DNA of 64,000 nt from an uncultured Coriobacteriaceae bacterium (GCA_902793195.1 CADBCS010000013.1:62001-126000), one strand, 5' to 3'; numbered from the stretch's first letter, positions 8,789 to 37,615 are shown. Notes: a model not told the origin generated them from the letters alone. Made by a program: numbers and translations.

Positions 8789-9304
8789 ATGGTGAGTGGG
8801 GGAGTGGCTGAGTACACGCATGTCGTGCATGGAATCGCGCCGACCTATAACGAGCGCAGCCGCGTGCTGGTGCTTGGGAGCGTGCCCAGCCCCAAGTCAC
8901 GCGAAGTGGGCTTCAATTATGGTCACCCGCAGAATCGCTTTTGGCGCGTTCTTGCCCAGCTGGCGGGGGAGCCGGTACCACAGTCGGTGGACCTCAGGCG
9001 CGACTTCTGCCTGCGCCACGGCATAGCGTTGTGGGACGTCGTGGCGGAGTGCGACATAGTGGGGGCCTCCGACACGAGCATCAAAAACCCCATCCCCAAC
9101 AGGCTCACCGACATTACGGAGGTGGCTCCCATCGAGGCGGTCTTTTGCACGGGCGCAAAGGCGCATGCGCTCTACCGACGCCTGTGCGAGGCTGACGTGG
9201 GCATCGAGGCCGTGCGACTGCCCTCCACGAGTCCCGCCAATGCCGCTTGCACGATGGATCAGCTGCTTGTGGCATATGCCCAGATTTTCGAGCACTGCTC
9301 GTAG
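8789..9304 (+). CDS. DNA-deoxyinosine glycosylase (uracil-DNA glycosylase superfamily)
   Basis: About 171 residues. It would remove hypoxanthine (deaminated adenine) from DNA as the first step of base excision repair. The motifs LVLGSVPSPKS, NYGHPQNRFWRVL and LPSTSPANA match the DNA-deoxyinosine glycosylase subgroup of the UDG superfamily. The frame is open further upstream to 8648, but that part overlaps the preceding membrane-protein gene and reads as low-quality Arg/Ser sequence, so the ATG at 8789 (or the adjacent GTG at 8792) is preferred. The ribosome-binding site is weak, which suggests coupling to the upstream gene. Confidence 0.85.
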   Translation: MVSGGVAEYTHVVHGIAPTYNERSRVLVLGSVPSPKSREVGFNYGHPQNRFWRVLAQLAGEPVPQSVDLRRDFCLRHGIALWDVVAECDIVGASDTSIKNPIPNRLTDITEVAPIEAVFCTGAKAHALYRRLCEADVGIEAVRLPSTSPANAACTMDQLLVAYAQIFEHCS

Positions 9305-9439
9305 CGGCAACCGGAATCTCGACCGACTCGCGCCTGTTGGGTCTGTGGCGGGCATCGTTAATAAACTCGACATGGAGACGAGTGTGTTTTTGCAGTATTC
9401 TATTCGCGTTACCGCGACAAAACTTGGGAGGGAACACGC

Positions 9440-29401: not shown

Positions 29402-29456
29402 TAGTTCAATTTGAGGAGTCCATAAATTGAACTTTGGAGTCTCATGGAATTGAACA
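29374..29456. promoter_or_regulatory. Cluster of TTGAAC half-sites, candidate operators
   Basis: TTGAACT occurs at 29374-29380 and 29427-29433, its reverse complement AGTTCAA at 29403-29409, and TTGAACA at 29450-29456 just inside the gene. The sites flank the promoter, the likely transcription start and the start codon of a gene whose product carries an N-terminal helix-turn-helix, which suggests autoregulation. Confidence 0.55.
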
Positions 29457-30925
29457 GCATCTTTAGCGAGCGGCTCAGGGAGGCAATGGAGCAACAGGGG
29501 CTCAAGCAGGTCGATCTCATTCAAGAGGTGACCAGTCGGGGCGACAGGCTGGGAAAAAGCCAGCTCAGTCAGTATGTGAGCGGAAAGACCATGCCGCGCG
29601 CAGACATGCTTGCCGTTTTGGCCGGCGCGCTCGGCGTAAGCGAGGAATGGCTCTTGGGAAGCGAGAAGCCAACAGAAAACAAGACGGTCCATCACCGGGA
29701 GGCGATTCCCATGCGGAGATTCAAGAAGTCGACAAAGCTCGATCACGTGTCCTACGACGTGCGGGGGCCCGCGCTCGACGAGGCCATGCGCATGGAGGAG
29801 GATGGCATCCACATCCTCAAGCTCAACATTGGCAACCCGGCACCGTTTGGGTTCCGCACGCCCGACGAGGTCGTCCAGGACATGGCGAGTCAGCTCAGAA
29901 AGACCGAGGGGTACTCCGACAGCCGCGGGCTCTTCTCGGCACGCAAGGCAATCATGCAATACGACCAGCTCAAAGGCATTCCCAACGTCACCATGAACGA
30001 CATCTATACGGGAAATGGCGTCTCGGACCTCATCAATCTGGTGATGCAGGCCATGATCGAGACGGGCGACGAGATTTTGGTGCCAAGTCCCGATTATCCC
30101 CTGTGGACCGCCTGCGTGACGCTGGCCGGCGGAAAGGCCGTGCATTACCTCTGCGACGAGCAGGCGGAATGGCTTCCCGACCTCGATGACATGCGCTCGA
30201 AGATCACCAGCAACACCAAGGCCGTCGTCATCATCAATCCCAACAACCCGACCGGTGCGCTGTATCCGCGCGAGGTGCTCGAGGAGATCGCGCAGATCGC
30301 CCGAGAGCACCAGCTCATCATCCTCTCGGACGAGATCTACGACCGTCTGGTGATGGACGACCTCGAACACGTGAGCATAGCGAGCCTCGCACCGGACCTG
30401 TTCTGCATCACGTTCAACGGCCTCTCCAAGAGTCACATGATCGCAGGATGGCGCATCGGCTGGATTTCCATCAGCGGCAACAAGCGTCTGGGTCGCGACC
30501 TGATGGAGGGCATCAACGTGATGTCTAACATGCGCCTTTGCTCGAACGTTCCCGCACAATCCATCGTCCAGACGGCGCTGGGCGGTCACCAGAGCGTCAA
30601 GGGGTATGTGGTGCCGGGCGGCCGCGTACGCAACCAGCGCGACTTCGTGTACGAGCGGCTAAGGCAAATCGACGGCGTGAGCGTGGTAAAGCCCAAGGCA
30701 GCGTTCTACATCTTCCCCAGGCTCGACCCCAACAAGTTCCACATTACCGACGACGAGCAGTTCCAGCTCGACCTCTTGCAGGACAAGCGCGTTCTCATAG
30801 TACCGGGCAAGGGCTTCAACTGGAGCACCCCGGGCTACTTCCGCATCGTGTACCTGCCTCGTCGTGCCATACTGGGCGAGGCGCTCGACAAGCTGGAAGA
30901 GTTCCTGGGGTACTACCGCCAGTAG
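29444..30925 (+). CDS. XRE-type HTH fused to a class I/II PLP aminotransferase (AlaA-like)
   Basis: The protein has 493 residues. Residues about 8-65 are a Cro/C1-type helix-turn-helix (LKQVDLIQEVT, LSQYVSGKTMPRADMLAVLAGALGVSEEWLLG). Residues about 85-490 are a full aminotransferase of the alanine-aminotransferase group, with INPNNPTGALYP, SDEIYDRLVMD, the PLP lysine K329 in NGLSKSHMIAGWRIG, and the C-terminal Arg in YFRIVYLP. It would exchange amino groups between alanine and 2-oxoglutarate or similar. The usual regulator-aminotransferase fusions are GntR-type (MocR); here the DNA-binding part is XRE-type and all catalytic residues look intact. TTGAACT repeats surround its promoter. Confidence 0.9.
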   Translation: MELNSIFSERLREAMEQQGLKQVDLIQEVTSRGDRLGKSQLSQYVSGKTMPRADMLAVLAGALGVSEEWLLGSEKPTENKTVHHREAIPMRRFKKSTKLDHVSYDVRGPALDEAMRMEEDGIHILKLNIGNPAPFGFRTPDEVVQDMASQLRKTEGYSDSRGLFSARKAIMQYDQLKGIPNVTMNDIYTGNGVSDLINLVMQAMIETGDEILVPSPDYPLWTACVTLAGGKAVHYLCDEQAEWLPDLDDMRSKITSNTKAVVIINPNNPTGALYPREVLEEIAQIAREHQLIILSDEIYDRLVMDDLEHVSIASLAPDLFCITFNGLSKSHMIAGWRIGWISISGNKRLGRDLMEGINVMSNMRLCSNVPAQSIVQTALGGHQSVKGYVVPGGRVRNQRDFVYERLRQIDGVSVVKPKAAFYIFPRLDPNKFHITDDEQFQLDLLQDKRVLIVPGKGFNWSTPGYFRIVYLPRRAILGEALDKLEEFLGYYRQ

Positions 30926-31005: not shown

Positions 31006-31177
31006 TGCTCTTGACACCGGCTGGCTGCTCTCGCCAAGTCGATGGTGCGGTTGGCCCGCCGCGGGCCCTGGCGGGCGCACAGGTCGCCGAATTGTATCTG
31101 TTCTGGGCTATACTGTTGTCTCAAATAACGTAAGGTACCTATGAGCAGTCCTTGTGAGGAGGATGGAGCATACGCAT

Positions 31178-31594
31178 ATGGACAGAAGGACTTTTTTGCG
31201 GGGCGCCTTTGGTCTGGTGGCGCTTGCGGGCGGAGCGACTGTGTGCGGTGTTGCCGCGCAGGCGACGCTGGGACAGTCTGGAGAAACGTTCGTAACACCG
31301 CCGGTGCAGGCGCCGGACGAGGCGGACGGTCCGGTGATGGCAGCCGGGATACAACTCGTGGAGCACGGTGACGAGGTGTGGGGCGTAACGCAGGACACGC
31401 ACCTCTTTAGCGTGGATGCCACGGGCGCGGAGCTGGTGCGTCTGGCCGACGGCAGCCATACCATAGACGAGATGGCTGCAGCTGCGTCGACGTCTTTGGA
31501 CCCAGCCGACGTGGCGTCGTTCTTCGTTACGCTGGGACAGGCGGGTTATCTGGCCAACACCGTGCTGGTGAACCTCACCACGCAGACGGCGTAA
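31178..31594 (+). CDS. Tat-signal protein with PqqD-like (RiPP recognition element) domain
   Basis: The protein has 138 residues. The N-terminus MDRRTFLRGAFGLVALAGGA is a twin-arginine-type signal. After a Pro-rich linker, residues about 68-128 match the PqqD pattern: DTHLFSVDATGAELVRLADG, HTIDEMAAAA, and DVASFFVTLGQAGYL. PqqD domains bind leader peptides and present them to radical SAM enzymes; finding one behind an export signal is odd. The frame is open to a GTG at 31154 and an ATG at 31163, but the ATG at 31178 has GGAG nine bases upstream and gives a clean signal. The radical SAM gene starts eight bases after its stop. Confidence 0.75.
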   Translation: MDRRTFLRGAFGLVALAGGATVCGVAAQATLGQSGETFVTPPVQAPDEADGPVMAAGIQLVEHGDEVWGVTQDTHLFSVDATGAELVRLADGSHTIDEMAAAASTSLDPADVASFFVTLGQAGYLANTVLVNLTTQTA

Positions 31595-31601
31595 GGCGAC
31601 T

Positions 31602-32978
31602 ATGGACAGCAACACACCACAGGCCCCCGAGCTCTTTGCCCTTCGCGACGAACGCGGACCCATCCTCTATGCCCCTCTGGGGCGACTCATGGCCCGGGCG
31701 AACGAGTCGGCCGTAAACGTGGCGCTTGCCTATGCGCGCGACCCAAAGGCGATTGACTCGATGTCCGAGGAGGAGCGTGCGGTCGTGAGGACGTTGGAGG
31801 AGCGAGGGTTCTTCGAGCGTCGTCCCTACCCGCAACACGAGGTGCAGTTCTGCCCCACGCAGGTTACGCTCTTTCCCACAAACGGCTGCAACCTGCGTTG
31901 CAGCTATTGCTACGCGTTTGGCGGCGAGGGGGGTGGCAACGGGGAGCCCATCACGCGCATGCGCCTGGAGGTCGCCCAGCGTGCCGTCGACCTGGTGGCG
32001 CGCAACGCGCGCAAGAGGCGCGACGCAGGCGAGGAGGTACGCAACTTTCTGGTGTCCATACACGGAAACGGCGAGCCGTTCTGCGCGTTCGACCTCATCC
32101 GCGAGATCGTGTGGTACGCCCAGGACGTCTCGGAGCAGGTGGGCGTTCCCGTGGTGTGCAACGCGGCGACCAACGGGGTCCTTTCCGACGAGCAGCTGGA
32201 CTTCGTTCTGGCGAACTTCGACAACCTCAACGTCTCGTTCGACGGGTTGCCCCAATACCAGGACGCGAATCGCCCCATCGCAGGCGGTCGCGGGTCCTTT
32301 GAGGCGGTAGACCACACGATGCGTCGCCTGAGCGAGGCAAACCTGAACTTTGGCATACGCACGACGGTGACGTCTGCCATGGTGGATGACATGCCCCGCA
32401 TCGTCGAGTTTGTCGCGGAACGGTACCCCTCCGCGGAGCAGCTGCACTTTGAGCCGGTGTGGGAGTGCGGACGCTGCAAGACCTCGCATGACACCATGCC
32501 GGAGTCGGACGTCTTCGTCCGTCGCTATCTGGAGTCTCTTGAGGTCGCGAAGGACCATGACCTGCGTCTCGTGTTTAGCGGCGCGCGCCAGGACGTGCTG
32601 GCAGACACGTTCTGCAAGGTCAGCAGCGGCTCCTTTACCGTAACCCCAACCGGCGACGTGACGGCATGCTACGAGGTGAGCTATAGGAGCGACCCGCGAT
32701 CGGAGCGGTTCTTCTTTGGCCGCTTCGACGATGCGGTGGGCGACTTCGTGTTCGACCAAGACAAGCTGGACCAGCTCTCACAGCTCAACGTGCGCAACAT
32801 GGGTTACTGCGACGACTGCTTCTGCCGCTGGCACTGCGCCGGCGACTGCTCCGCCAAGGTCCTCGACGGCATTGGGCCGGACGAGCACCACGGCAGCGTG
32901 CGGTGTTTGATAAGTCGCTCTCTCACACTTAACCAGATTCAACGAAAACTCGATTGGAGGCCGAACGATGAGCAATGA
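31602..32978 (+). CDS. Radical SAM/SPASM peptide maturase
   Basis: The protein has 458 residues. The N-terminal 85 residues look like a small recognition domain. The radical SAM core has CNLRCSYC (C96, C100, C103) for the catalytic 4Fe-4S cluster and SAM, with GNGEPF and the usual strand pattern. The C-terminal SPASM domain has cysteines at 338, 356, 403, 406, 408, 412, 416 and 435 (YCDDCFCRWHCAGDC), for auxiliary clusters. SPASM enzymes commonly modify ribosomal peptides, for example by thioether links. The gene overlaps the Cys-rich peptide gene by eleven bases, which makes that peptide the obvious substrate. Confidence 0.9.
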   Translation: MDSNTPQAPELFALRDERGPILYAPLGRLMARANESAVNVALAYARDPKAIDSMSEEERAVVRTLEERGFFERRPYPQHEVQFCPTQVTLFPTNGCNLRCSYCYAFGGEGGGNGEPITRMRLEVAQRAVDLVARNARKRRDAGEEVRNFLVSIHGNGEPFCAFDLIREIVWYAQDVSEQVGVPVVCNAATNGVLSDEQLDFVLANFDNLNVSFDGLPQYQDANRPIAGGRGSFEAVDHTMRRLSEANLNFGIRTTVTSAMVDDMPRIVEFVAERYPSAEQLHFEPVWECGRCKTSHDTMPESDVFVRRYLESLEVAKDHDLRLVFSGARQDVLADTFCKVSSGSFTVTPTGDVTACYEVSYRSDPRSERFFFGRFDDAVGDFVFDQDKLDQLSQLNVRNMGYCDDCFCRWHCAGDCSAKVLDGIGPDEHHGSVRCLISRSLTLNQIQRKLDWRPNDEQ

Positions 32979-33339
32979 CGCAAAGGACTACGACGATCGC
33001 AAGCTCACCACAAAGAGCGAGGATGCGCTTCCCAAGCCGCAGATAGAGATCATCGTCGACGGCAACAGCGTGTTCAAGCCGGGAATGAAGACGTACTTTG
33101 TTGACGGCTACGACGCCGAAAAGGGCGAGTACTCCGGCAAGGTGATGGGGGAGTACTGCACCTGCGACACCGTGGTGAGCACGCATGTGGTGTGCACGTG
33201 CGAGGCCGTGTGCACGTGCGAGGCCGTGTGCAGCTGCAACGGATACCAGAGCTGTTCCTGCGTGAGCAACGTGTCGGGTGGTGGCGGGTCGCACACGGTG
33301 TCGTGCGGAAGTCCCTGCGCCTGCGTTCCCGTGCACTAG
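32968..33339 (+). CDS. Cys-rich peptide with six CxC motifs, candidate RiPP precursor
   Basis: The protein has 123 residues. The first 60 residues are charged and Cys-free, like a leader. The C-terminal half has 13 cysteines: CTC at 64-66, 76-78 and 82-84, CSC at 88-90 and 96-98, C113, and CAC at 117-119. Residues 76-90 form a six-residue repeat (VCTCEA, VCTCEA, VCSCNG). A Gly-Gly-Gly-Gly stretch separates the last cysteines. GGAGG stands nine bases before the ATG, and the gene overlaps the maturase gene. No known bacteriocin or RiPP family was recognised. Metal binding without modification is an alternative. Confidence 0.8.
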   Translation: MSNDAKDYDDRKLTTKSEDALPKPQIEIIVDGNSVFKPGMKTYFVDGYDAEKGEYSGKVMGEYCTCDTVVSTHVVCTCEAVCTCEAVCSCNGYQSCSCVSNVSGGGGSHTVSCGSPCACVPVH

Positions 33340-33382
33340 CGCTGCGCTCGCGATTGCATGCAAATGAGAGGAGAGTAGTGCC

Positions 33383-34753
33383 ATGACCTCACGTAATTCC
33401 GTCCTGACATTCGTCGTTTCGTCCGTGCTGGCAATCTCCCTTGCGGCATGCGGCTCCCAGCAGGCGTCCGAGGCAAACCAAAAGGACGCGCCTGCACAAG
33501 ACGCCGCCGTTGCGGAGCAGGAGGTCGCACCAAAGTTCATTACGGGCCATGCCAAGCGAGACATAAAGGAGCTCGACGACATCGTCACCCTCAAGGAGAT
33601 TCGGGAGCGGTGCGAGAAGCTCAAGGATGAGGTGCCCGAGAAGGCCGAGGACGGCGATCTGGCCAAGTCGGCGGACAAGGCGTTTACCAACGCGAACAAG
33701 GAGTATGCGGCGGGCAACTACGATAAGGCCGTATCGGGTTACCAGGACGCCATAAAGACCTATCCGCTTCACCTGGGTGCCAACGTAAACCTCACGCTTG
33801 CGTTGCTCCAACAGCAGAAGAACGAGGAGGCACTGGCGCAGGCCCTCATATGCGCCCACCTGTTCCCCAAGGACTCGGGATGCATCCTCAACGCGCAGGT
33901 CGCATGCGTGGCAAACGGGTTCTCCTTCGCGGACCTCAAGGAGCCTCTGCGCAAGTCCGTGAGCACGTTCGGTGGGACATCCGCACTCAGTCGGATGTCC
34001 TCGGACAAGAACAAGAAGCTGTACGAGTACAACGAGCTGTGGGACGAAATCGAGACGACCCTGTACAACGGCGACAATGCCGATGACGACAGGCCACTGT
34101 CGATACGGTTCCAGGACGTGCGCATAAAGCTCAAGGATCTTGCCGAGGACCACGGCAAGGATCCCGATGTCCAGGCATTGCGCGCATATCTCGACTCGTT
34201 GGGTGCCGAGCTGGGCTGGGTCGTGGACGCGAGCGCTGCCGAGGCGGTGCGGGAGCTGCCCGCCGTCATACTGGACGACGAGATGTGCAAGGTCGAGATA
34301 ACCGACGTGTCCTGGAATCCCTCGAAGGGCATGACGGTCAAATACACCTTGACAAGCCGGAACGAGGATGGCCTGAGCATAAAGAACGGTGACGGCTGGA
34401 TGATAGACGGCGAGCCTGCCTACACCGAGTGGGACGGCCATCACCTGAACTCCGCCTTCGACGTCGACGGCTCGTTTGGCGTCAAGAAGGGGACCGAGGA
34501 CTCGAGCGACGAGGCGACCTCGAACAGCAAGACGTCGAGCGACAAGTCGACGAGCAGCAAGACCACCTCAAACAGCAAGTCCACGAGCGACAAGGCCACC
34601 TCAAACAGCAAGACGACCACGGACAGCAAGTCCACGAGTGACAAGTCTGCAGACGATGCGGAGCCCAAGGATCTATGTGGGGTCCTCTGCATCGCAGATG
34701 ACGAGGGGAAGGTCGTGAAGGTCTTTCCGTTCCACTGGGCTGCCGGCGCATAG
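33383..34753 (+). CDS. TPR-containing lipoprotein of the peptide-modification operon
   Basis: The protein has 456 residues. The lipobox LAACGS follows a signal peptide of about 22 residues, so it should be anchored outside the membrane. Residues about 105-185 contain TPR-like helices (EYAAGNYDKAVSGYQDAIKT), usually a protein- or peptide-binding module. A folded region with few features follows to about 375, then a 55-residue Ser/Thr/Lys/Asp repeat tract (SSDKSTSSKTTSNSK) and a conserved-looking end DLCGVLCIADDEGKVVKVF. GAGAGGAGAG precedes the ATG. It lies between the peptide gene and the second radical SAM gene and may handle the exported product. Confidence 0.75.
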   Translation: MTSRNSVLTFVVSSVLAISLAACGSQQASEANQKDAPAQDAAVAEQEVAPKFITGHAKRDIKELDDIVTLKEIRERCEKLKDEVPEKAEDGDLAKSADKAFTNANKEYAAGNYDKAVSGYQDAIKTYPLHLGANVNLTLALLQQQKNEEALAQALICAHLFPKDSGCILNAQVACVANGFSFADLKEPLRKSVSTFGGTSALSRMSSDKNKKLYEYNELWDEIETTLYNGDNADDDRPLSIRFQDVRIKLKDLAEDHGKDPDVQALRAYLDSLGAELGWVVDASAAEAVRELPAVILDDEMCKVEITDVSWNPSKGMTVKYTLTSRNEDGLSIKNGDGWMIDGEPAYTEWDGHHLNSAFDVDGSFGVKKGTEDSSDEATSNSKTSSDKSTSSKTTSNSKSTSDKATSNSKTTTDSKSTSDKSADDAEPKDLCGVLCIADDEGKVVKVFPFHWAAGA

Positions 34754-34768
34754 GCCGGCGTTCTAGCC

Positions 34769-36154
34769 ATGCGCGTCTTCCTCATACGGCCTCTCTGCGT
34801 GGTCGAGGAGCCCGAGTTCGCCGAGCCGCTCGGAATCGAGCGGCTGGCGGGCTATCTGTTGGCACGAGGCATTCGTGACGTGCATCTGTTTGACCGACGG
34901 CTGTACGAGCGCGAGCGAGATGCGGGTATCGCTGCGGGCACGTTTTGGGATGACGTGCGCTCTGCCGTGGCGGAGGGGATGCCAGACGTGATTGGCGTGT
35001 CGCTCATGACGTCGTCGGACGTGCGTGACGCCAGTCGCGTATTGGTGCGCTTGCGGTCCATGTGTCCGGGAGTGCGGTTGGTGGCAGGTGGACTTCACGT
35101 GACGATGGCGCGCGAAGACGTGGCCCGAATGCTGCCGCGTGGCACCGAGCTCATTGCGGGCGAGGGCGAGGGGCCGCTCTACGCGCTCGTTTCCGGCACT
35201 CCCCATGTTTCCTCTCTCACACCCGATGACTGGGCTTGTGCGCATAGGCCGCATCTGGAGCGGTATGCCGTCCTGGGTTGCGCGGTTAACATGCAGACGT
35301 CGCGGGGCTGTCCGGGAACGTGTGCCTTCTGCGCCACGCCCGGACTGCCGGCAAGCCTGAGGGCGTGGCGCCCTCGGCGGGTGGGCCTGGTGGCAGACGA
35401 GATGGAGTCGGTTGCGCGGCGCCTGGAAGCCGCAGGCCTTCCGGCCGTGTGCAACTTCGTGGACGACGACTTTGGTCCCCTCGAGCGGCTGGAGGAGCTG
35501 GCTGCCGAGCTCGCGCGACGCGAGGACCTTCGCGTCACCTACTCATGCGAGATGCGCATGCGGACGCTCACTCATGCGCGCAATCTTGGACGTAGGCTCA
35601 AGTCGTTGCACGAGACTGGTCTCACGCGCATCTTCGTGGGGGTTGAGTCGCTCGACCCCGACACCCTCGAGCAGTGGCACAAGCGCTACGACGTGGGGCG
35701 CCTGCCTCACGTGGTGAGGGCATTTGACGAATCGGGCGTTCGCCTGCAGGCGGGATACATCATGTGGCATGCAGACCAGACGGTGCGGGGTGCCCTGGAG
35801 GAGGCGCAGGGCCTCCATCGTCTGGGACTCTACGCCCACCAGGCGGCGACGAGCCGGATGATAGTGTTTCCCGGCTGCGCGCTTGCGGAGGAAGCTGGTT
35901 CGGTGGATGGGCTTGAGCCGTTGACCGCTCATGCGCAGGAGTTCTACCAAACCTTCCTACGCGAGACGGAAGACTTGCGCAGGCGTTGGATGCGTGCTGC
36001 TATAGCCGAGCCGCATGCCACGGCCACGGCATGGCTCACGGGAGACGATGGGCGGGCAACGGCGCTCAACGACGAGCTGCGCGAGGTCAACGAGCTCTCG
36101 TACGCGGCGTTCACGACGTTGGCCGAGTCCTTTGTGACCGGGCAGGACGTGTAG
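34769..36154 (+). CDS. B12-binding-type radical SAM protein
   Basis: The protein has 461 residues. Residues 1-140 read as a cobalamin-binding-like Rossmann domain (LGIERLAGYLLARG, VIGVSLMTSSD, LVAGGLHVTM). The radical SAM core follows with CPGTCAFC (C181, C185, C188) and downstream FVGVESLDPDTLEQWHKRY, as in cobalamin-dependent methylases and related enzymes. No DxHxxG base-off motif is evident, so cobalamin binding is uncertain. The ribosome site is weak and translation may be coupled to the lipoprotein gene 16 bases upstream. It is the second radical SAM enzyme of this operon. Confidence 0.8.
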   Translation: MRVFLIRPLCVVEEPEFAEPLGIERLAGYLLARGIRDVHLFDRRLYERERDAGIAAGTFWDDVRSAVAEGMPDVIGVSLMTSSDVRDASRVLVRLRSMCPGVRLVAGGLHVTMAREDVARMLPRGTELIAGEGEGPLYALVSGTPHVSSLTPDDWACAHRPHLERYAVLGCAVNMQTSRGCPGTCAFCATPGLPASLRAWRPRRVGLVADEMESVARRLEAAGLPAVCNFVDDDFGPLERLEELAAELARREDLRVTYSCEMRMRTLTHARNLGRRLKSLHETGLTRIFVGVESLDPDTLEQWHKRYDVGRLPHVVRAFDESGVRLQAGYIMWHADQTVRGALEEAQGLHRLGLYAHQAATSRMIVFPGCALAEEAGSVDGLEPLTAHAQEFYQTFLRETEDLRRRWMRAAIAEPHATATAWLTGDDGRATALNDELREVNELSYAAFTTLAESFVTGQDV

Positions 36155-36163
36155 GGAGGACAC

Positions 36164-37615
36164 ATGCGCTACGCGGTTCCCGTAAACGGAGCGAATGAGG
36201 TCGAGGCGCTCGCTGCGGCAGGTGCCGACGAGCTGTACTGCGGGGTGCTGGAGCCATGGTGGGAGCGGCGCTATGGCAACCATGACTCGTCGAGCCGCAG
36301 GCAGGGCAAGGCCAACCTGTCGTCGCGAGGGGAGCTGCGCGACGTGGTGCATGCCGCCGACGCGTACGGCCTTGCCGTTTTTCTCGCGCTCAACGCGCGA
36401 TACAGCGAGCCGCAGCTCGACTATCTCGTGGGGCTGTGTGAGGCCTTCGAGGGTTATGGCGGTCGTGGGGTCATCGTCTCGGACCTGGGCCTGCTGTGGC
36501 GCCTGCGCGGCAACACGAGCCTACGTGTCACGCTCTCCCTGCTTGCCGTGGCACAGAACGTGCCCACGATCCAGGCGTTCGCGGATTTGGGCGTCTCGCG
36601 GGTGGTGCTGCCACGTTTTGTTGACTGGCGCGAGGCTGGCACGCTCCTGCACCCGTGTGGGGGAATGGAAGCCGAGGCGATGGCCTTCTTCGACAAGTGC
36701 CCATGGGTGGACGGGTATTGCCGCCATCCGCATCTGGTCTCGTTTCCCGAGGTACGGGGCAACGTGACCGCACATGACGAACCGCTCCTTACCTTCGACA
36801 CCACCTATCGTACGCATGCCTGCCTGGGCGGGGCCTGCTCCTATGTGGAGCCGTATCCCTGCGCGGCCTGCTTTCTGGAACGCTTCGAGCATGCTGGCGT
36901 GGGCGTCGCAAAGCTGGGGGGTCGTGGTCGCCCCTTGGCCGAACGCGTGCGAGCGCTCTCGTTTTTGCGTGCGGCCAAAGCGTGCGCAAGCGACGACCAA
37001 CGCGCGCGACTCTATCGGCGAACGTTCGGCCAACAGTGTGCGTGCTACTACGGCGAGCACACACAGCGCCGTGATGCCATAGAGCCCACGCATGCGCAAT
37101 CCGCAAGCGACGAGCGCACATACGTGGGCAGCGAGACGAGCGTCTCCGCGTTTCGCGAGGCATTGGCCAAGCTCATGGACGGCCCACGTGCTGAGGGGCC
37201 ACTCACCATCCTGGTTCCGCCTCTGTCCCAACGCTCACTCGAATTCCTCGCACGATCGATTGAGGGACTCGATGTCGTCATTCCCGAGGGAACGCATCTG
37301 TGTGTCAACGACTTGGGTACGCTCGTCACCCTTGCGCGCCTCCTGCGCGATGCGCCAAGCCACATGGTGTTGCGGCTCGGCACGTTGCTTGCGAGAGGGG
37401 AGGACCCCAGGGTCGTGGCGCACTTCCTCTCGCCGGAGCAGAACCCCCCTCGCTTGGTGACGGACGAAGAGGGTCGAGTCCGGGCCCTCACGTATGCGCC
37501 GCCGCCAGACGAGCTGACAACGCACTGGCGAAGCTGGTCCACATGCGAGCCGTCGGCAATGCGGGCCGTGGCAGAACTGACCGGCATTGCCACGGTCGAG
37601 CGGGAGTTCCCTTAG
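36164..37615 (+). CDS. U32 peptidase-like protein with iron-sulfur-type cysteine cluster
   Basis: The protein has 483 residues. The start MRYAVPVNGANEVEALAAAGADELYCG is the typical TIM-barrel opening of the U32 family, which includes collagenase-like proteins and the UbiU/UbiV and RlhA iron-sulfur hydroxylases. Cysteines 220, 225, 233 and 236 (CLGGACSYVEPYPCAAC) form a cluster-binding pattern, and C292/C294 are near. True peptidase activity in this family is doubtful. GGGAGGA precedes the ATG and the gap to the upstream gene is nine bases. It closes the operon. Oxidation or hydroxylation of the peptide is a possible role. Confidence 0.75.
   Translation: MRYAVPVNGANEVEALAAAGADELYCGVLEPWWERRYGNHDSSSRRQGKANLSSRGELRDVVHAADAYGLAVFLALNARYSEPQLDYLVGLCEAFEGYGGRGVIVSDLGLLWRLRGNTSLRVTLSLLAVAQNVPTIQAFADLGVSRVVLPRFVDWREAGTLLHPCGGMEAEAMAFFDKCPWVDGYCRHPHLVSFPEVRGNVTAHDEPLLTFDTTYRTHACLGGACSYVEPYPCAACFLERFEHAGVGVAKLGGRGRPLAERVRALSFLRAAKACASDDQRARLYRRTFGQQCACYYGEHTQRRDAIEPTHAQSASDERTYVGSETSVSAFREALAKLMDGPRAEGPLTILVPPLSQRSLEFLARSIEGLDVVIPEGTHLCVNDLGTLVTLARLLRDAPSHMVLRLGTLLARGEDPRVVAHFLSPEQNPPRLVTDEEGRVRALTYAPPPDELTTHWRSWSTCEPSAMRAVAELTGIATVEREFP

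Follow-up and report, generated by a model that had tools for sequence, protein, structure and literature searches.

The 64,000-nucleotide stretch of DNA analyzed here, from an uncultured Coriobacteriaceae bacterium of the gut or rumen (GCA_902793195.1, CADBCS010000013.1:62001-126000; referred to as the window), carries a six-gene operon, genes A to F. We propose that it makes a ranthipeptide-type, Cys-rich, cell surface ribosomally synthesized and posttranslationally modified peptide (RiPP) that is exported in folded form by the twin-arginine translocation (Tat) system, a reading whose chances we judge to be about even. The arrangement was unmatched in any family or paper among those searched. 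A preliminary description of the window had proposed six adjacent genes with two radical S-adenosylmethionine (SAM) enzymes, and the open reading frames (ORFs) agree with it. The features of the locus are as follows.

31178 to 37615, plus strand: six-gene operon, A to F; all ORFs intact and co-oriented.
31178 to 31594, plus strand: gene A, 138 amino acids, Tat signal peptide and RiPP recognition element (RRE; PqqD-like) domain, from motif conservation, the AlphaFold2 fold, and fold matches in the PDB.
31178 to 31270, plus strand: twin-arginine signal region of gene A, MDRRTFLRGAFGLVALAGGATVCGVAAQATL; RR-x-F conserved in 22/22 sequences, TatC in the genome.
31602 to 32978, plus strand: gene B, radical SAM/SPASM peptide maturase with a predicted N-terminal RRE of its own (approximately residues 8 to 72), from Cys patterns and the CteB match.
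32968 to 33339, plus strand: gene C, putative precursor, 123 amino acids, no signal peptide; conserved in 22 loci, with leader and C terminus invariant.
33028 to 33102, plus strand: conserved leader/recognition segment of gene C, LPKPQIEIIVDGNSVFKPGMKTYFV, from its invariant residues.
33157 to 33336, plus strand: core of gene C, with CxC repeats CTCD, CTCE, CTCE, CSCN, and CSCV, ending VSCGSPCACVPVH.
33383 to 34753, plus strand: gene D, tetratricopeptide repeat (TPR) lipoprotein with lipobox LAAC and a variable Ser/Lys/Thr-rich linker, from the invariant C23 and TPR in a homolog.
34769 to 36154, plus strand: gene E, B12-binding radical SAM enzyme, from Pfam domains and CX3CX2C.
36164 to 37615, plus strand: gene F, U32-family protein with an extra C-terminal domain, from Pfam and seven invariant Cys.

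The genes are separated by 7 (A/B), 43 (C/D), 15 (D/E), and 9 (E/F) bases, and B and C overlap by 11 bases. An alternative in-frame GTG for gene A lies at 31154; its relatives begin M[ED]RR. No NCBIfam model reached its curated cutoff for any of the six genes, and Pfam and NCBIfam scans returned no named RiPP family at cutoff for them, in line with the earlier statement that no nameable RiPP class matches.

Gene B was scanned against 84,980 species genomes. The scan gave 21 loci with 66 to 81% identity in the best segment, all of them in uncultured Coriobacteriia and many of digestive tract origin (sheep, goat, or rumen). The order A, B, C, D was kept at ~20 further Coriobacteriia loci wherever contigs were long enough. 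Since these ~20 loci hold the same genes amid differing, unrelated flanking genes, the association goes beyond chance, and the recurrence in other Coriobacteriia genomes on which the preliminary description depended was found. Genes E and F usually come after D; their order is F-E in two loci (L038 and L051), and F precedes A in another (L036). In L051, at ~9002 to 9337, gene B is split over two frames with overlapping BLAST pieces, likely a frameshift or assembly error in a metagenome-assembled genome.

An even sample of the class (298 genomes; B counted at ≥56% identity, F by strong matches) contained B in 13 genomes and E and F in 12 each, the identical 12. The thirteenth genome with B, G278, has the sole complete A-to-D cluster without E and F (locus L050). 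In genome G212, both genes are retained at a distance from B, F ~9 kb upstream of it and E ~10 kb downstream; E and F thus track the operon even where they are not adjacent to it. Elsewhere in the class, two genomes (L072 and L073) hold the full gene set at ~32 to 55% identity. Within the window's own genus (g1), genes A and C were present, in one copy each, in 13 of 16 genomes, and the three genomes without them are less complete or fragmented assemblies; such a distribution suggests a cluster that is nearly core to the genus. A phylum-wide sample, sparse in the class, gave a strong B match in no genome besides the window's own, so that the window-type family seems confined to Coriobacteriia at that sensitivity. 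Among plasmids, only distant B homologs and no window-type cluster were seen. The gene content of the operon, its conservation, and the co-occurrence of its genes are well supported.

The radical SAM motif of gene B, CX3CX2C, comprises C96, C100, and C103, and its SPASM Cys pattern is complete and conserved (C338, G351-x4-C356, C403-x2-C406-x5-C412-x3-C416, and C435); the Pfam Radical_SAM match was above cutoff and the SPASM match below it. With the family profile, the best PDB match was CteB (6.6e-35). An AlphaFold2 model of B (predicted local distance difference test [pLDDT], 84; predicted template modeling score, 0.85) overlaid CteB over residues 8 to 453, RRE included (Z, 30.6 to 30.8; root mean square deviation, 4.3 to 4.4; 392 to 403 residues). 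An N-terminal βββ-ααα unit at residues 12 to 67 had a mean pLDDT of ~90, and by this model B has its own leader-binding domain, an N-terminal RRE as in CteB. The nearest NCBIfam models were those of nif11-like, PapB, SCIFF, and QhpD maturases, all below cutoff (SCIFF, 105.5 versus 425; PapB, 109.5 versus 340; TIGR03906 of the QhpD group, 91 bits). This kinship with SCIFF, PapB, and QhpD maturases makes a non-alpha thioether the likely product. PapB is permissive, taking Cys-Xn-Asp motifs from n = 0 to n = 6 and also Glu (PMC9413430), a tolerance with which thioether formation in the CxCD/E units of C is compatible.

Judging from these sequence relationships, ranthipeptide-like chemistry of B on C is likely. 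B would bind the leader of C (PKPQIEIIVDG...) via its N-terminal RRE and would cross-link the CxC-[D/E]-x-V repeats of C intramolecularly through Cys thioethers. The SCIFF/CteB and PapB/freyrasin ranthipeptide systems have in common with the operon a SPASM radical SAM maturase with an N-terminal RRE, matching CteB over its full length, and a Cys-rich core with Cys near Asp or Glu. The operon differs from them in that B falls below their NCBIfam cutoffs, that we infer the bridges from sequence, that C has CxC hexad repeats rather than the six-Cys SCIFF or the CX3D pattern, and that genes for a Tat-signaled RRE, a lipoprotein, a B12 radical SAM enzyme, and a U32 protein are added. In the maturation of the QHNDH gamma subunit, QhpD, likewise a radical SAM/SPASM enzyme of this group, has as its target a small protein that lacks a signal and whose final location is outside the cytoplasm. 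The operon differs in having no dehydrogenase subunits, and its candidate Tat carrier is an RRE.

Gene C encodes a Cys-free N-terminal region of 63 amino acids followed by a 60-amino-acid core with 13 Cys, 12 of which are in CxC pairs. Across genomes, the Cys-free N-terminal region has at least 60 residues and there are 12 to 19 Cys, nearly all CxC paired. The CxC count of the window core was reached by 290 of 20,000 shuffles, and homologs have up to 18 of 19 Cys paired. The leader has nine invariant residues (P22, K23, P24, I28, I29, D31, G32, P38, and K41) and the consensus PKPQIEIIVDG...FKPGMKTYFV, the repeats are frequently the hexad C-[ST]-C-[DE]-x-V, and the C terminus reads VSCG[SA]PCACVPVH. 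A variable repeat number between a fixed leader and a fixed C terminus is the pattern expected of RiPP precursors whose core is repetitive. The short CxC-rich peptide previously noted beside a SPASM enzyme is CxC rich, though "short" is a loose description of 123 amino acids. No twin-arginine motif was found in the first 60 residues of C in 22 sequences, and no signal peptide was apparent.

In gene E, both Pfam domains scored above cutoff (B12-binding, 45.5 bits; Radical_SAM, 52.3 bits), which settles the B12 domain that had been listed as possible; its CX3CX2C motif (C181, C185, and C188) is invariant. The nearest NCBIfam models, below cutoff, were BchE and a lipid pathway B12 radical SAM enzyme, and the nearest solved relative was OxsB (1.4e-11). 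Against TIGR03975, the model of B12 radical SAM RiPP C-methyltransferases, E scored 34.9, compared to a cutoff of 281.85. Gene F matched Pfam Peptidase_U32 above cutoff (45.5 versus 22.4 bits), as its earlier designation as U32-like implied. F also gave a partial match to the NCBIfam UbiU model, below cutoff, and resembles TrhP; its profile found no sequence relative in the PDB. It has seven invariant Cys, a CX6C pair at 179/186 as in UbiU, and a C-terminal extension. With the U32 oxidases UbiU/UbiV, TrhP, and RlhA it shares the Peptidase_U32 domain, the CX6C pair, and a proposed O2-independent oxidation; it differs in the extra C-terminal domain and in the spacing of its other Cys, which is CX33CX12CX2C plus CxC versus CX6CX15CX3-4C in U32 oxidases (UbiU itself has CX6CX16CX38C). 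Characterized U32 oxidases are O2-independent hydroxylases of quinone precursors and RNA (PMC11574389, PMC6747719). Literature searches on U32 with RiPPs found no paper, and a peptide substrate for a U32 protein would be new within the literature searched.

We propose that E, as a B12 radical SAM enzyme, and F, as a U32, putatively iron-sulfur protein acting by O2-independent oxidation, would modify C further, perhaps at its invariant C-terminal ...CACVPVH, and that the bridging would occur in the cytoplasm and all these steps would precede export. The precursor at L050 (7536 to 7913) ends CACIPVYY, versus CACVPVH elsewhere (VPVH to IPVYY, with the terminal His lost). A changed C terminus in a cluster that lacks E and F is a hint, from one case, that the two enzymes target this end.

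These same enzymes and the same Cys could also be read in another way, in which C would bind metals or Fe-S clusters (as a metallothionein-like peptide or a redox carrier) and be modified by B only in part, and the product of E and F would be a distinct small molecule or cofactor for loading onto C. Cys that are nearly all in CxC pairs form a metal-ligand pattern, the relatives of E (BchE, the lipid pathway enzyme, and OxsB) are small-molecule enzymes, and F has its likeness to UbiU and TrhP. We nevertheless think this reading rather improbable, since B resembles CteB as a complete peptide maturase, leader-binding domain included, and A to D exist without E and F in G278.

The proposed route of export rests on gene A. 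R3, R4, and F6 of A are invariant in 22/22 sequences, and, judged by motif, A has a Tat signal (a twin-arginine RRxF motif followed by a hydrophobic stretch, in a host with TatC). TatC was found in the window's genome and in 295 of 298 class genomes; being near universal in the class, its presence shows feasibility only. In the AlphaFold2 model, residues 41 to 130 (pLDDT, ~96) have the βββ-ααα topology of the RRE fold. The leading Foldseek matches were mostly RREs, several of them leader bound (8t19 and 5v1u), with no E value of <0.001, and a second structural aligner gave Z scores of 8.0 to 8.4 to the RREs of TigE, LynD, a lasso B1 protein, and TbiB1. These scores are moderate on the aligner's scale; the agreement on RREs is strong. 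Pfam PqqD (PF05402) scored 20.6 bits, below its gathering cutoff of 23.4, and the sole PDB sequence matches of the profile were to PqqD and weak. By its model, A is a winged-helix RRE, and the exported PqqD-like protein of the preliminary description is upheld by both motif and fold; signal and fold are well supported. Because B carries its own RRE, A is the second RRE of the operon.

Tat signals recur on CxC-rich proteins beside B homologs in other lineages. In five genomes of one family of the class (f8), the Tat signal and a lipobox sit on the precursor itself, which also has CxC units and terminates in a GGGHYWYP-type sequence (HYWYP-x); three B-like SPASM radical SAM genes follow the precursor, plus a further radical SAM gene in those inspected. 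The precursors lie at L074 6595 to 7080, L075 9797 to 10774, L076 8290 to 8775, L077 7912 to 8316, and L078 9474 to 9920, and those of L074 to L076 contain long CTCE/CTCD arrays. The f8 system is apparently undescribed. On the plasmid NZ_CP128402 of Candidatus Chlorohelix (Chloroflexota; L086, 37 to 6771), two Tat-signaled proteins, one of them WD40, have CxC-rich tails ending HYWYPN/HYWHPN and lie next to three radical SAM genes that have homologs in the f8 system. The same locus encodes a small cytosolic protein of 98 amino acids with a weak PqqD match; BLASTP found no similarity between it and gene A, and the two RREs may therefore not be orthologs. A Tat-signaled CxC peptide directly follows a B homolog on the Caballeronia plasmid pNK81 (L085, 6239 to 6838), and a CxC-rich peptide without a Tat signal does so on a Methylocystis plasmid (L087, 6173 to 6559). 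The Tat-signaled peptides of f8, Chlorohelix, and Caballeronia suggest that a Tat-exported CxC peptide is a common target of this enzyme branch. By eye, a segment P-[KQ]-[VI]-x-x-[IV] occurs near the N termini of the L074 to L078 and L086 precursors and of the window's C (33028 to 33102), with PKPQIEII, EKPQVFAV, and EPKVFRI as instances; it may be a common leader recognition element. B homologs and CxC-rich targets are common to the operon and the f8 and Chlorohelix systems, which differ in bearing the Tat signal on the precursor (in f8, also the lipobox) and in having three to four radical SAM genes. Neither E nor F was found beside the f8 and Chlorohelix loci. Literature searches on Tat with RiPP radical SAM enzymes, and on HYWYP, found no paper.

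Gene D has a lipobox Cys, C23, that is invariant in 20 sequences. Its TPR is weak in the window protein and passes the TPR cutoffs in a homolog (L035), which bears out the TPR lipoprotein of the preliminary description. Because the f8 precursor bears its own lipobox, D may supply the anchor or receptor that C lacks; by this analogy, D may be the membrane anchor or receptor for C.

A cross-linked peptide, we propose, cannot thread through Sec and so leaves via Tat, and since C has no signal, A, as a Tat-signaled, putatively leader-binding RRE, would carry it across as a hitchhiker. A would grip the leader of cross-linked C and escort it through Tat, and D would receive or anchor the product outside. 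Among the neighbors at the ~20 loci, no transporter or peptidase was conserved with the cluster; this result, together with the Tat signal on related precursors, leads to the escort model. Judged from the sequences, hitchhiking through Tat on an RRE would require the fewest assumptions. Tat hitchhiking, in which a Tat-signaled partner carries a signal-less one, is established (PMC10924467, PMC4273604, PMC6719666). The proposed pairing of signal-less cargo with a Tat-signaled carrier would be common to A and C and to the Tat hitchhikers (hydrogenases, PaoABC, and flavin adenine dinucleotide-glucose dehydrogenase); here, the carrier would differ in being a RiPP leader-binding domain and the cargo in being a modified peptide.

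Several points weigh against Tat export of a bridged and further modified C. Just three of the six CxC units of the window peptide precede Asp or Glu, co-occurrence is not proof that E and F act on C, and the correlation with the terminal His rests on a single cluster (L050 in G278). A could act outside the cell, independent of export, and the genome could encode a peptide exporter at another site. The last two points combine into an alternative in which C, once modified by B, E, and F, is exported by a transporter whose gene is unlinked to the cluster, and A goes out by itself, serving outside the cytoplasm as a chaperone or maturation factor that binds the leader. ATP-binding cassette (ABC) peptide exporters can be unlinked to their peptide genes, B already has an RRE, and A, with its Tat signal, could work alone outside. 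We consider this alternative unlikely: the ~20 clusters conserve no transporter or peptidase, and the Tat signal on related precursors points to Tat as the export route for such peptides.

A further possibility, that the product is an antimicrobial sacti- or ranthipeptide (a bacteriocin), was considered and disfavored. Ruminococcin C is among the Cys-rich, radical SAM-modified gut peptides (PMC8188230). However, the conserved neighbors showed neither an immunity gene nor an exporter gene, the cluster is near universal in genus g1, unlike the typically patchy bacteriocins, and lipoprotein D and the related lipidated cargos point to a product retained at the surface. The near-core distribution and the lack of immunity and transporter genes argue against a bacteriocin, which we regard as very improbable, and for a retained surface function. 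Our guess is that the product is a metal- or redox-active surface peptide and not an antibiotic; this function we infer.

Upstream of the operon, at 29444 to 30925, a gene encodes an N-terminal HTH_3 domain fused to a class I aminotransferase (Pfam). A promoter scan found none, and terminator-like matches were near the numbers in shuffled sequence.

If the Tat export proposed here is true, RiPPs, whose export is usually attributed to ABC transporters or Sec, would gain Tat as a further route, and the reason for Tat would be that a covalently bridged peptide must exit folded. RRE domains would gain a second role, as export escorts, and the system would offer a direct test of peptide hydroxylation by U32 proteins. 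More tentatively, a Tat-signaled RRE would be the passport for a cross-linked, leader-bearing peptide, a U32 oxidase would hydroxylate a peptide for the first time, and the operon, together with the CxC/HYWYP precursors, would form a multiphylum class of Tat-exported, radical SAM-modified peptides; we see this broader view as possible and still doubtful. For the rumen Coriobacteriia, the product would be a conserved surface peptide, open to purification and assay.

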